Part shown: piece after piece, positions 31,292 to 34,729 of the stretch
Layout of the letters: each line of letters starts with the position of its first letter
How positions within the stretch are numbered: the stretch's first letter is position 1
From: Bryobacteraceae bacterium
GTDB taxonomy: Bacteria > Acidobacteriota > Terriglobia > Bryobacterales > Bryobacteraceae
Length of the DNA stretch: 52,885 nt
Reading direction: 5' to 3'
NCBI GenBank assembly: GCA_030041495.1
Contig: JASHNT010000016.1
Coordinates: forward strand, 1-52,885
Notes under the pieces: generated by a model
Database searches by the model: none
Seen by the model: the letters and a program-made list of their open reading frames with translations, nothing else
Told to the model about the DNA's origin: nothing
Made by a program: the position numbers and the translations under genes

Positions 31292-32920
31292 ATGCGCTGC
31301 GTTCTTGGGTCAAGGATGCTCCGCATCCTGGCGGTCGTCTTCACCATGGCACTCGCCCTTGCAGCCGTTCCCGATCTCGCCGAATTGAACCGGATGATCG
31401 CGCGCTTCGCGCCGGTCAAAGTTACCGCCGATACATCGAAGCTCGCTCCCGGCGACCGGCAGGCGCTCGCCAAGCTGCTGGATGCGGCCAATGTCATCGA
31501 CCGGATTTTTCGCGAACAGCTCTGGGCCGGCGGCAACGCCTCAGCGGAGAAGCTCGCCCAGGACACCACGCCTCTGGGAAAAGCGCGCGATCACTATTTC
31601 CGCATCAACAACGGCCCTTGGTCGGATCTGGACGATCACGCGGCGTTCATTCCGGGTGTTCCCGCGAAGAAGCCTCTGGGCGCGAATTTCTATCCCGAGG
31701 ACATGAGTAAAACCGAGTTCGAGGCCTGGGTCGCGAAACTTCCGAAAGCTCAGCAGGACGAAGCCACCGGATTTTTTACCGTGATCCGCCGCGGCGCGAA
31801 CCGCTCGCTGAGCATGGTTCCTTACAGTCAAGCCTACGCGGATTCGCTGGCTCAGGCGGCGGCGCTGCTCAACCAGGCCGCGGATCTCACGCCCAACGAA
31901 TCGCTCAAGGATTTTCTGCATCTGCGTGCACAAGCATTCTTGTCGAACGACTATTACGCCAGCGACGTGGCTTGGATGAAGCTCGACGCGCCGATCGATG
32001 TGACCATCGGTCCGTACGAAACCTACAATGACGAGTTGTTCGGCTACAAGGCGTCGTTCGAGGCTTATGTGACGTTACGCGATGAGCTGGAAACGGCGAA
32101 GCTGAAGATGTTCGCCGACCACATCCAGGAAATCGAGAACAATCTCCCACTGGAAGCCAAGTACCGTAATCCGAAGCTCGGCGCGCTCGCGCCCATCCGC
32201 GTGGTGAACCAGATCGTCGCTACCGGTGACGGAGCGCACGGAGTCCGCACGGCCGCGTTCAATCTGCCCAACGATGAGCGCATCGTCAAGGCAATGGGAT
32301 CCAAGCGCGTGATGCTGAAGAACGTGCAAGAGGCCAAGTTCGCCACCATCCTTGAACCGATCGCGTCCCGCGTGCTTGCGCCGGCGGACCGCGGCGACGT
32401 CAGGTTCGACTCCTTCTTTACGCACATTCTGGCGCACGAGATGACGCACGGCATCGGGCCGCAGACCGGCGTGCGGCAGTCGCTCAAGGAGCTTTACTCG
32501 GCCATTGAAGAAGCCAAAGCTGACGCTACCGGTTTGTTCATGATGCAGTATCTTTTTGACCATCGGTTGCTGCCCGCAGCCGAAAAGCCGCTGTACACCA
32601 CCTTCCTGGCATCGAGTTTCCGGACTCTGCGGTTTGGTGTCCATGAAGCGCACGGCAAAGGCATGGCGCTGCAGTTCAACTATCTGACCGATAAAGGCGC
32701 ATTCGTCGCGAAACCCGACGGAACCTTCACGGTGGATTCGGCCAAGATTAAGGGTGCGGTGCGCGACCTGGTTCACGATCTGCTCGAAATCGAAGCCACC
32801 GGCGATTACGCCCGCGCCAAGCAGATGCTGGATACGCTCGGCCAGTTGCGGCCTCGAATGCAGAAGGCTCTGGATCGTTTGCAGGATTTGCCGACTGACA
32901 TCGAGCCGGTCAGCAATTAG
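31292..32920 (+). CDS. Exported M49-type (dipeptidyl-peptidase III-like) zinc peptidase
   Basis: 542 residues with a signal peptide (RILAVVFTMALALAAVPD). The helical domain in the first half contains DHYFRINNGPWSDLDDHAAF and PYETYNDELFGYKASFEAYV, as in DPP III relatives. The zinc motif is HEMTH at 382-386 and the third-ligand motif EEAKAD at 406-411. Classical DPP III has HELLGH and EECxAE/D; a five-residue HExxH variant is known in Caldithrix-type members. It probably removes dipeptides or acts as an exported hydrolase. The -10 box lies six bases before the ATG; an alternative in-frame ATG at 31316 exists. Confidence 0.85.
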   Translation: MRCVLGSRMLRILAVVFTMALALAAVPDLAELNRMIARFAPVKVTADTSKLAPGDRQALAKLLDAANVIDRIFREQLWAGGNASAEKLAQDTTPLGKARDHYFRINNGPWSDLDDHAAFIPGVPAKKPLGANFYPEDMSKTEFEAWVAKLPKAQQDEATGFFTVIRRGANRSLSMVPYSQAYADSLAQAAALLNQAADLTPNESLKDFLHLRAQAFLSNDYYASDVAWMKLDAPIDVTIGPYETYNDELFGYKASFEAYVTLRDELETAKLKMFADHIQEIENNLPLEAKYRNPKLGALAPIRVVNQIVATGDGAHGVRTAAFNLPNDERIVKAMGSKRVMLKNVQEAKFATILEPIASRVLAPADRGDVRFDSFFTHILAHEMTHGIGPQTGVRQSLKELYSAIEEAKADATGLFMMQYLFDHRLLPAAEKPLYTTFLASSFRTLRFGVHEAHGKGMALQFNYLTDKGAFVAKPDGTFTVDSAKIKGAVRDLVHDLLEIEATGDYARAKQMLDTLGQLRPRMQKALDRLQDLPTDIEPVSN

Positions 32921-33276
32921 GCGGAACGTCGCGCTGCTTGCGCCCCCCGGCGCGTAATGATCTTCGGCGGCCACAGCCGCAGGGTGTGCACCCGGCTCAG
33001 CAGCGCTGCGCCCAGCCCGTACCCGAGGCCGTAAGCCAACGGCGTCCAGGGCGATCGCACCGCCAGCCGCCACCCCTCCAGCATCAACGCCGGCCCCAGC
33101 GCGGACATCAGCATCACGCGCCAGAACGCCGCGCCCGCTTTCGCCGCGACGCGGTTGCCAACCGGGTAGACAGCCGCAACGGTCAGCCCCACCAGCAGCG
33201 GAACCACGTGCACGAAGAAGATCTTCTGGACGTAGAGCCACATCAACACAGACATTGGAATCTTGACCGCGATCAC
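32917..33276 (-). CDS. Small polytopic membrane protein, last gene of the sulfotransferase cassette
   Basis: 119 residues with three or four hydrophobic segments (SVLMWLYVQKIFFVHVVPLL, GLTVAAVYPVG, AFWRVMLMSALGPALMLEG, PLAYGLGYGLGAALL) and a basic C-terminus. Family not recognised. Its start overlaps the stop of the redoxin gene by 4 bases (ATGA), so it is translated with it. It could be a redox partner, an exporter component or an immunity-type protein; none can be shown. Its stop overlaps the convergent M49 gene by 4 bases. Confidence 0.7.
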   Translation of the reverse strand: MIAVKIPMSVLMWLYVQKIFFVHVVPLLVGLTVAAVYPVGNRVAAKAGAAFWRVMLMSALGPALMLEGWRLAVRSPWTPLAYGLGYGLGAALLSRVHTLRLWPPKIITRRGAQAARRSA

Positions 33277-33737
33277 TTCATCGCCTCCAAGATGCTGTCG
33301 ATGATCACACGCCGCTGGAGAATCGGCGATCCGGCAGGCTCGCTCTGCGCCTGAATGATTCCGTGCTTGTCGATGATCGCCACCTGCGGAGTCCCTACTG
33401 GGCGGTCCGGTCCCGTCATGCCCATGAACGCGCGCATCACTTCACGCGATAGCTTGTACACCGGAAACGTTAGACCCTGTTCCCGCGCGAACTTCGCCGT
33501 GTCGCCTTCGTCATCGAACGCGATCGCCACGGCACAGACACGTCCGGACTCGTATTCCGGTTCCAACACCGAATGCGTGAACGCCTTGCAATGCGGACAC
33601 GTCGTGACAATCCACGCCAGCACCGTGGGCCTTCCCTTGCAGGGCGATAGCAGATTCAGCGCCGGCGCCGGCCGCGGCAGTTTCGGCTGCGCGCTCGCCA
33701 GGGCAGACAGCGTCAACAGTAACAGGATTTTCTTCAT
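33273..33737 (-). CDS. Exported thioredoxin-like (TlpA/redoxin) protein with CPHC active site
   Basis: 154 residues from ATG 33737; this start overlaps the sulfotransferase stop by 4 bases and gives a clean signal peptide (KKILLLLTLSALASAQPK). The fold is thioredoxin-like: PTVLAWIVTTCPHCKAF holds the CPHC redox pair, and GTPQVAIIDKHGII supplies the cis-Pro region (TP). CPHC is the DsbA-type dipeptide, which favours oxidation of substrate thiols, although TlpA-like reductants also occur. Acting in the periplasm, it could form or shuffle disulfides in the Cys-rich peptide encoded at the head of this cassette; that link is inferred. Confidence 0.85.
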   Translation of the reverse strand: MKKILLLLTLSALASAQPKLPRPAPALNLLSPCKGRPTVLAWIVTTCPHCKAFTHSVLEPEYESGRVCAVAIAFDDEGDTAKFAREQGLTFPVYKLSREVMRAFMGMTGPDRPVGTPQVAIIDKHGIIQAQSEPAGSPILQRRVIIDSILEAMK

Positions 33738-34519
33738 AAGATCACCACCCCGCGAGGATTCTCCGCCTCCCAAAAACACTTGTCGTGCACCTTGAACAGA
33801 TCCGGCGGAAGAATCGACTCACGCTGGTTCGCCACCACCGGCCCGCTCACCCGGTGTAGCCCCGGCATGTTCAGCCGGCCGTCAAACTCCGGCGAATCGT
33901 ATTCGACACTGCTGAAGCCGTGCTCGAACTCCGGCTCTTCCAGCAAGCTGTACAACCGCCTCATCGTGCGCTGCGGCTGCTCGGTCAGCGATTCGTACCG
34001 CACCGCGATCATCCGCTGCGCCTGTTCGCTGAACCACGCCTGTTTCATATTCCTGAGAGCGGACCCGACCGACCTTTTCATCAGGTCCTCGCACCGTTGG
34101 TAGACGTCCGTGGCTGTGGGTGGCGAAGTTTTCGGGATCACCGTCATGTCTCGCTGCGCGATGCGCTCGAAGCTGTCCAGCGCCCACGCCGGACTCCGTA
34201 GCATGCAGATCACACGCGATTCCGGATACAGCTCCGCGATCAGCGGCAACATACCGGACCATCCCCGGCTCGTGTCGAACACCACATCGAACGGACTGTC
34301 CCTGTAGTAGGCGTCTCCGACGGCTCGCAACACGCGTTTCCGTTGTTCCGAGGACACAAAGAAGCCGCTCTCGGCCTGTGACATCCCGACGATCAGCCGC
34401 CGGATGAAATCGCACAGCGGAGCCGTCATCTCCGCCCGAAACCTAGGATTCTGCCGCAGAATCGCCGATAACAACGTCGATCCCGCGCGCGGCATTCCCG
34501 AAATAAAGTGAATTCTCAT
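33734..34519 (-). CDS. PAPS-dependent sulfotransferase
   Basis: 261 residues, no signal peptide. The 5'-phosphosulfate loop is residues 9-17 (MPRAGSTLL), matching the PxxGTS/ST-type P-loop of sulfotransferases. The 3'-phosphate site is near VICMLRSPAWALDSF (R108, S116). The remainder (YEPLTEQP-like VRYESLTEQPQRTMRRLYSL) is typical of the bacterial Sulfotransfer family. It transfers sulfate from PAPS to a hydroxyl. The acceptor is unknown; the Tyr-rich peptide encoded 51 bases upstream is a candidate. GGAGG four bases before ATG is a strong ribosome site. It overlaps the redoxin gene by 4 bases. Confidence 0.88.
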   Translation of the reverse strand: MRIHFISGMPRAGSTLLSAILRQNPRFRAEMTAPLCDFIRRLIVGMSQAESGFFVSSEQRKRVLRAVGDAYYRDSPFDVVFDTSRGWSGMLPLIAELYPESRVICMLRSPAWALDSFERIAQRDMTVIPKTSPPTATDVYQRCEDLMKRSVGSALRNMKQAWFSEQAQRMIAVRYESLTEQPQRTMRRLYSLLEEPEFEHGFSSVEYDSPEFDGRLNMPGLHRVSGPVVANQRESILPPDLFKVHDKCFWEAENPRGVVIL

Positions 34520-34533
34520 AGCCTCCTCAAACA

Positions 34534-34556
34534 GGGGCGGATTCTGAATCCGCCCC
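34534..34556 (-). terminator. Perfect hairpin between peptide gene and sulfotransferase (attenuator-like)
   Basis: GGGGCGGATTC (34534-34544) and GAATCCGCCCC (34546-34556) pair perfectly with one central base. On the minus strand it sits 15 bases after the peptide stop and before the sulfotransferase ribosome site. The following TGTTTG is a weak U-tract, so partial termination or mRNA stabilisation is more likely than full termination. This is the layout seen where a precursor peptide is made in excess of its enzymes. Confidence 0.65.
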
Positions 34557-34570
34557 CGAAAACGCGCCCA

Positions 34571-34729
34571 CTAGATCGGGCAACAGGCATACGCGGCGGC
34601 GCCGTACTCGTCCTGCACCCACCCCTCAACAGAGGACCCGCAGTAATACCAGCCGTGACCCAGGTATTCCTGGCAATAAGGCTCGTAGTGGAACCCGTCC
34701 GGCGGCCAAATAATGATCGGTTCACCCAT
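34571..34729 (-). CDS. 52-residue Tyr/Trp/Cys-rich peptide, candidate precursor
   Basis: Translation starts MGEPIIIWPPDGFHYEPYCQ and ends GAAAYACCPI. It has seven Tyr, three Trp and four Cys (C19, C30, C49, C50, the last two adjacent and two residues from the end). There is no signal peptide or membrane helix. Several tyrosines have acidic neighbours (HYEP, QEYL, QDEYG), which is the context that protein sulfotransferases usually prefer. A purine-rich GGGAGGAAAGG run lies upstream but its nearest part is 12 bases from the ATG. It heads a minus-strand cassette with a sulfotransferase, a CPHC redoxin and a membrane protein. I do not recognise a family; the function is not known. Confidence 0.6.
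   Translation of the reverse strand: MGEPIIIWPPDGFHYEPYCQEYLGHGWYYCGSSVEGWVQDEYGAAAYACCPI

Follow-up and report, generated by a model that had tools for sequence, protein, structure and literature searches.

The window analysed here is a stretch of 52,885 nucleotides (contig JASHNT010000016.1, assembly GCA_030041495.1) from a soil-type bacterium of the family Bryobacteraceae. It carries on its minus strand a cassette of four genes, in which the gene for a short Cys- and Tyr-rich peptide is followed by genes for a PAPS (3'-phosphoadenosine 5'-phosphosulfate)-type sulfotransferase, a thioredoxin-like redoxin and a small membrane protein (Table 1). An earlier note on this DNA had read the cassette as a locus of the RiPP (ribosomally synthesized and post-translationally modified peptide) kind, and its account of the single parts was largely reproduced: the composition of the 52-codon open reading frame (ORF; 7 Tyr, 3 Trp and 4 Cys), the hairpin behind it, the class of the sulfotransferase, the exported look of the CPHC redoxin and the size and membrane character of the last gene product were all recovered. 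The peptide also has 7 Asp or Glu and is free of Lys and Arg. The ATGA overlaps said to join the three downstream genes hold for the sulfotransferase and redoxin frames, whereas the redoxin and membrane protein frames overlap by GTGA, the start codon of the latter being GTG. The redoxin most likely starts at the ATG at 33737 and its N-terminus looks signal-like by eye; hydropathy predicts two to three membrane segments in the membrane protein of the window and two to four in its relatives.

Table 1. The cassette in the window, feature by feature in the order of the minus strand
Feature	Position	Strand	Evidence
Peptide gene, 52 aa, four-Cys, Tyr/Trp-rich, Lys/Arg-free	34571..34729	-	family profile, synteny, dN/dS
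Intercistronic hairpin, 10-bp perfect stem, 3-nt loop	34534..34556	-	perfect-stem count
PAPS-type sulfotransferase, TPST-like, 261 aa	33734..34519	-	PF13469 E 1.8e-20
Exported-looking TlpA/AhpC-type redoxin, CPHC, 154 aa	33273..33737	-	PF00578 E 5.8e-9
Membrane protein, 119 aa, outside known families	32917..33276	-	no Pfam family; hydropathy

Sequence comparisons confirm that the 52-residue ORF is a real gene and belongs to a conserved peptide family. Eight aligned peptides share four invariant Cys (19, 30, 49 and 50), typically in the pattern C(Q/A)..G..YYC..CC, and the peptides of the family are acidic, with at most one Lys or Arg each. A profile of these eight, run over 237 genomes of the bacterial family, matched six genomes at E 5.6e-16 or better, all of them of the window's genus, and a seventh (G504) at E 0.022. 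As this search is circular for its own rows, held-out profiles were trained on the peptides of other genomes and used to rank the ORFs of the window and of the G539 locus, 752 in all. With six peptides of G028, G170, G072 and G099 the window ORF ranked first (E 3.4e-4) and the G539 ORF second (E 0.02); with four peptides only, G539 came first (E 0.0017) and the window second (E 0.034). The rate of nonsynonymous substitution (dN) was below the synonymous rate (dS) in all seven peptide pairs with a computable dS, out of eight tried, at ratios of about 0.08 to 0.43 with several of the dS values saturated; for the window and G539 peptides dN was 0.55 and dS 1.28. This pattern suggests purifying selection. 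The short ORF is thus borne out as a conserved peptide gene, as the earlier note had taken it for a peptide. In G028, G170, G072 and G099 the first peptide is preceded by a ribosome-binding site of the AAGGAGG type. A search of 200 genomes with the window peptide as a single sequence gave matches in 99 others, mostly at chance level (best E 0.0043), one of which, in G028 (E 0.24), was later found to lie just upstream of a redoxin gene.

Around the peptide, the redoxin and the membrane protein recur as a pair. The redoxin, a protein of widespread type, is matched in 211 of the 237 genomes, and the membrane protein in eight. In seven of these eight (the window's own genome, G000, and G539, G028, G170, G072, G032 and G099), all of the window's genus, the best redoxin stands directly before the membrane gene, the exception being G525 with its weak match. 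The two frames overlap by 4 nt in the window and in all six other loci read (L068-L073; counted in L068 from an internal ATG of the frame), and the CxHC motif is kept in every one of the seven paired redoxins, as CPHC in four, CAHC in two and CSHC in one. A short ORF of the peptide design lies upstream of the pair in six of the seven genomes, G032 being the exception; G028 and G170 have two such ORFs each. It stands immediately upstream of the pair in five genomes, and in the window the sulfotransferase gene intervenes. As five more genomes carry members of the peptide family ahead of this gene pair, the arrangement is more than chance. In G539, where the permease upstream shares 89% identity with that of the window, peptide and redoxin occur without the sulfotransferase. 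Judged by these gene neighborhoods, the conserved core is peptide, redoxin and membrane protein, and the sulfotransferase is an addition to a system otherwise without it; the gene order, coupling, conservation and enzyme class of the cassette are established at the level of sequence. A gene for an ECF (extracytoplasmic function)-type sigma factor follows the cassette in L069, L070 and L071 (by Pfam on L069 only), and none was seen in the window.

A second type of the peptide, with a hydrophobic signal-like N-terminus and the core CQ.WFG..WYYCG...YCC, occurs once in the window's own genome and once in G539; its two loci are L179:4954-5154 (contig C48 of the own genome) and L181:5958-6158. The signal-like peptides of the two genomes are 48% identical, and a profile of the eight other peptides gave them the two top ranks among 269 ORFs (E 0.0015 and 0.033). 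Each is preceded by a related protein resembling helix-turn-helix (HTH) proteins (73% mutual identity; Pfam HTH match below cut-off) and adjoined downstream by a membrane protein. These two membrane proteins are 66% identical to each other; the one in G539 is 30% identical to that of the window (E 8e-6), and the one in the window's own genome reaches only E 0.008. The membrane protein is the partner common to both peptide forms. Pfam offers no family for it, and on eight of its relatives gave one chance-level match (E 0.2); an identity as MrtX (E 0.004 over about 40 residues, 17 bits against a cut-off of 180) was taken as chance.

The hairpin begins 14 nt past the stop codon of the peptide gene, and the exact sequence of its core occurs once in the genome and is therefore not a common repeat. 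Perfect stems of at least 8 bp lie within 60 nt after four of the eight first-cistron peptides (window, L070, L071 and L073) and after neither of the two second-cistron peptides, compared with a background of 18 in 2400 random 60-mers and 2 in 128 stretches after long ORFs. The stem count gives only 4-bp perfect stems after the peptides of L069, L179 and L181; folding places stem-loops at the same site in relatives including these three, where the folds were made without shuffles. Two results tell against the hairpin: the whole 261-nt stretch is no more stable than its shuffles (z 0.01), and a terminator scan did not flag it. It probably serves uneven expression, with an excess of the first cistron. 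A scan for sigma-70 promoters and terminators gave nothing exceeding chance, Rfam nothing at gathering score, and PHROGs a single match (E 0.3). Directly beyond the membrane protein gene a convergent gene (31292-32920, plus strand) has a partial match to M49 peptidases.

The sulfotransferase appears to be TPST-like, the tyrosylprotein sulfotransferases (TPSTs) being its closest relatives among solved proteins in sequence and in predicted fold. By sequence the best are human TPST1 (E 4e-8), a sulfotransferase domain of a polyketide synthase (8e-8) and TPST2 (3e-6). An AlphaFold (AF2) model from 42 sequences has a pLDDT of 91.9, and its 13 best Foldseek matches are all human or tick TPST chains, which outrank the polyketide-type, mycobacterial and carbohydrate sulfotransferases. 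All 42 aligned sulfotransferases have R11 and S116, which appear to match in place Arg-11 and Ser-118 of RaxST, two residues given as essential in PMC6637879. The window's own genome has two matches to the kinase of adenosine 5'-phosphosulfate (APS), and therefore PAPS can be made.

With up to ten candidates scored per genome, the sulfotransferase is found at E 1e-20 in five of the 237 genomes: the window's own, G179 (where the frame is cut short), G064, G531 and G092. A phylum sample of 297 genomes returned only the own genome at E 1e-25, and a first scan of genome collections with the single sequence returned nothing. A scan of named genomes with the alignment gave 348 relatives; the best 80 of these, which were studied, are 40-49% identical and come from Proteobacteria, Cyanobacteria, Actinomycetota and others. 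A FastTree phylogeny of 42 sulfotransferases joins the four full-length enzymes from the bacterial family in a clade with a support of 0.987; inside this clade, window, G064 and G531 group together at only 0.314.

The other three members of this clade also have small ORFs of peptide type in their vicinity. In G531 (L033:10990-13829) a single strand carries a 334-residue ORF without a Pfam family, a 115-residue ORF with 12 Cys and a ribosome-binding site, a MauE gene (PF07291 E 1.7e-21) and the sulfotransferase, the last two overlapping by ATGA; the order is presumably reminiscent of the maturation genes of methylamine dehydrogenase. In G064 the sulfotransferase lies near a contig end, with an 83-residue ORF (6 Cys, signal-like start) 1.5 kb away and, in the same locus, a protein with a rhodanese domain and a redoxin match that stays below cut-off. 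In G092 (L025:10791-19867) a LanC-like ORF (25 bits, cut-off 23) overlaps the sulfotransferase by 1 nt, and the locus has three NHLP export genes above cut-off, one for HlyD and two for ATP-binding cassette (ABC) proteins, as well as a TIGR03896 match below cut-off. Here a convergent 70-residue ORF on the opposite strand shows by eye a double-glycine leader and ends in GGG-TYGFGNDDGN, with one Tyr in the presumed core; its NCBIfam matches, to leaders of lantibiotics and of ATP-grasp targets, are below cut-off. As an observation in its own right, G092 presents a RaxSTAB-like locus in an acidobacterium, with a C39 transporter, an HlyD-like protein and a leader-like ORF. The short ORF of the window is absent beside these other sulfotransferases, an absence that the earlier note had named as speaking against its reading; the different peptides just described take its place. 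The kind of neighbor recurs; the peptide sequence does not.

Farther afield, relatives of the sulfotransferase lie near RTX, tail-collar and other proteins. A tail-collar-like cluster is close to the gene in L128, L143, L145, L146, L159, L161, L162, L165, L166 and L168 (assigned by Pfam on L165 only of the ten), eight of these ten loci also having a PhyH-like cluster (Pfam on L159 only), and APS-kinase-like genes are near it in five loci, two of which were tested. ABC and HlyD genes near the sulfotransferase in L106, L131, L148 and L151 (the ABC gene of L148 with a C39 match) are read as probable type I secretion of large proteins, because in three of the four they are joined by a large repeat protein (L106, L131 and L151, not L148). 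The ABC matches of L112, L117, L136 and L141 were set aside; they have no HlyD partner within their clusters. These wider neighborhoods would suit an enzyme that acts on exported proteins.

We lean, by a modest degree, toward an operon that makes a tyrosine-sulfated, disulfide-bonded secreted peptide. A precursor-like ORF and a candidate modifying enzyme lie in one operon, as they would in a RiPP locus, with the sulfotransferase gene between peptide and redoxin and coupled to the latter by ATGA; no leader-like N-terminus is seen by eye and, as the earlier note had it, no protease is among the cassette genes. We infer sulfation, disulfide bonding and export of the window peptide along the following lines. 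The hairpin would let the first cistron accumulate in excess over the enzymes, and the sulfotransferase, in the cytoplasm with PAPS, would sulfate one or more Tyr, those best placed by nearby acidic residues being Y15, Y18, Y22 and Y42. The peptide would then be exported, perhaps by way of the conserved membrane protein, and the redoxin would form two disulfides among the four invariant Cys outside the cytoplasm. In relatives that have no sulfotransferase, the product would be a disulfide peptide of this kind that carries no sulfate. It is conceivable, at a confidence somewhat short of even, that these peptides are a leaderless class, defined by the four invariant Cys, whose maturation takes only a small membrane protein and a CxHC redoxin with a signal; one lineage would then have added a RaxST-like sulfotransferase, thereby giving a tyrosine-sulfated, disulfide-bonded secreted peptide outside Xanthomonas, and each of the related sulfotransferases in the bacterial family would act on another peptide, either Cys/Tyr-rich or leader-borne.

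Several points weigh against a sulfated, exported product. Conservation was anticipated both for the Cys and for the acidic Tyr positions of the peptide; the former hold, and none of the Tyr positions is common to all eight aligned peptides. No route of export can be made out for the window peptide, which has no discernible Sec signal or double-glycine leader, and at neither locus does a redoxin stand beside the signal-like form. The peptide family usually goes without the sulfotransferase, which goes against the centrality that the earlier note gave this enzyme: among the six peptide-bearing genomes only the window's has it at E 1e-20, and Tyr-richness is independent of it, the G099 peptide having 7 Tyr and no sulfotransferase in its genome. 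By sequence the polyketide-synthase domain is nearly level with TPST1, and the TM-scores of the TPST matches are moderate (0.53-0.59). The Glu-Glu-Thr of TPSTs aligns in the profile with i-s-t, so that the catalytic Glu, at the position we take it to have in TPST2, is not conserved; another His or Glu may serve. Beside the truncated sulfotransferase of G179, a genome of the window's genus, no ORF rich in Cys and Tyr was noticed on the strand of the gene, and for the 115-residue ORF of G531 a search of 110 relatives of that genome gave no convincing homolog, the one match (E 0.005) carrying two stops. One count speaks in favor: under a strict rule for Cys/Tyr-rich, Lys/Arg-poor ORFs, applied to the 80 loci and the window, 4 of 794 ORFs qualify within 2 kb of the sulfotransferase on its strand, compared with 0 of 1474 at greater distance and 2 of 2594 on the antisense strand (Fisher p 0.015 for near against far, 0.008 for near against the rest). 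As three of the four near matches were known when the rule was set, the count supports the reading but does not prove it. Of the 77 loci from outside the bacterial family, only 1 had such an ORF near the sulfotransferase.

The absence of the sulfotransferase from five of the six peptide genomes speaks for an alternative in which a disulfide peptide is the product of the core cassette, and the sulfotransferase, as a passenger, modifies another acceptor such as a glycan, a lipid or another secreted protein. The RTX, tail-collar and other neighbors of its wider relatives, and the Nod-factor enzyme NoeE as its best NCBIfam match (27 bits against a cut-off of 500), point the same way. A passenger would, however, hardly be expected to sit between peptide and redoxin with an ATGA coupling, to have small-peptide neighbors repeatedly in its clade or to resemble TPSTs in fold above glycan sulfotransferases, and we consider this alternative unlikely, if by no means far-fetched. 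The membrane protein shared by both peptide forms, and the position of the small peptide first in the operon before a hairpin, could also be explained if the peptide were a leaderless toxin of bacteriocin type, against which the membrane protein gives immunity instead of serving in export; as the peptides are acidic, with hardly a Lys or Arg, and no known immunity family is matched, this is distinctly improbable. Less probable still is a cytoplasmic or metal-binding small protein whose Cys are kept reduced by the redoxin: the four conserved Cys and the lack of a visible signal in the window form would fit, but the redoxin has a signal-like N-terminus, and so do the peptide paralogs in G000 and G539. 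A chance frame, in favor of which stands that neither Pfam nor NCBIfam has a match to the window peptide, is already contradicted by the conserved family, the synteny, the selection and the ribosome-binding sites in relatives, and we give it practically no credence.

The best-known bacterial case of tyrosine sulfation is RaxX of Xanthomonas, a single signal of a plant pathogen. The locus and the three relatives of its sulfotransferase offer concrete candidate enzyme-substrate pairs, and the peptides form a new small family with few genes for their maturation, a minimal complement. The likeness to RaxX-raxSTAB lies in a soluble TPST-like sulfotransferase beside a short Tyr-containing peptide; in contrast to that system, the window locus is without a double-glycine leader, RaxA and RaxB, and features a redoxin and a peptide with four Cys. 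PMC6637879 reports that Proteobacteria and Cyanobacteria have homologs of RaxST, at about 40% identity, in varied gene contexts, most of which lack RaxA or RaxB. Among solved structures, metazoan TPST1 and TPST2 come nearest to the window enzyme, both in sequence profile and in fold, but this enzyme is bacterial, shows no anchor and reaches only a moderate TM-score, and the catalytic Glu of TPSTs is not conserved at the aligned position. As to NHLP bacteriocin export, the relative in G092 lies in such a locus, whereas the window cassette has no NHLP gene. Among the matches listed from the openly licensed literature there was no bacterial peptide cluster with both a sulfotransferase and a disulfide enzyme; the closest statement among them is in PMC9372746. 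The glycocin clusters of sublancin and pallidocin, as described in PMC6405829, likewise bring together a short two-disulfide peptide, a transferase and thiol-disulfide oxidoreductases, but the window cassette has a sulfotransferase and no glycosyltransferase, and is without a leader, an ABC transporter and a recognised DsbB-like protein. For a transferase combined with thiol-disulfide enzymes on one short peptide, glycocins are the nearest analogue of the arrangement in the window.

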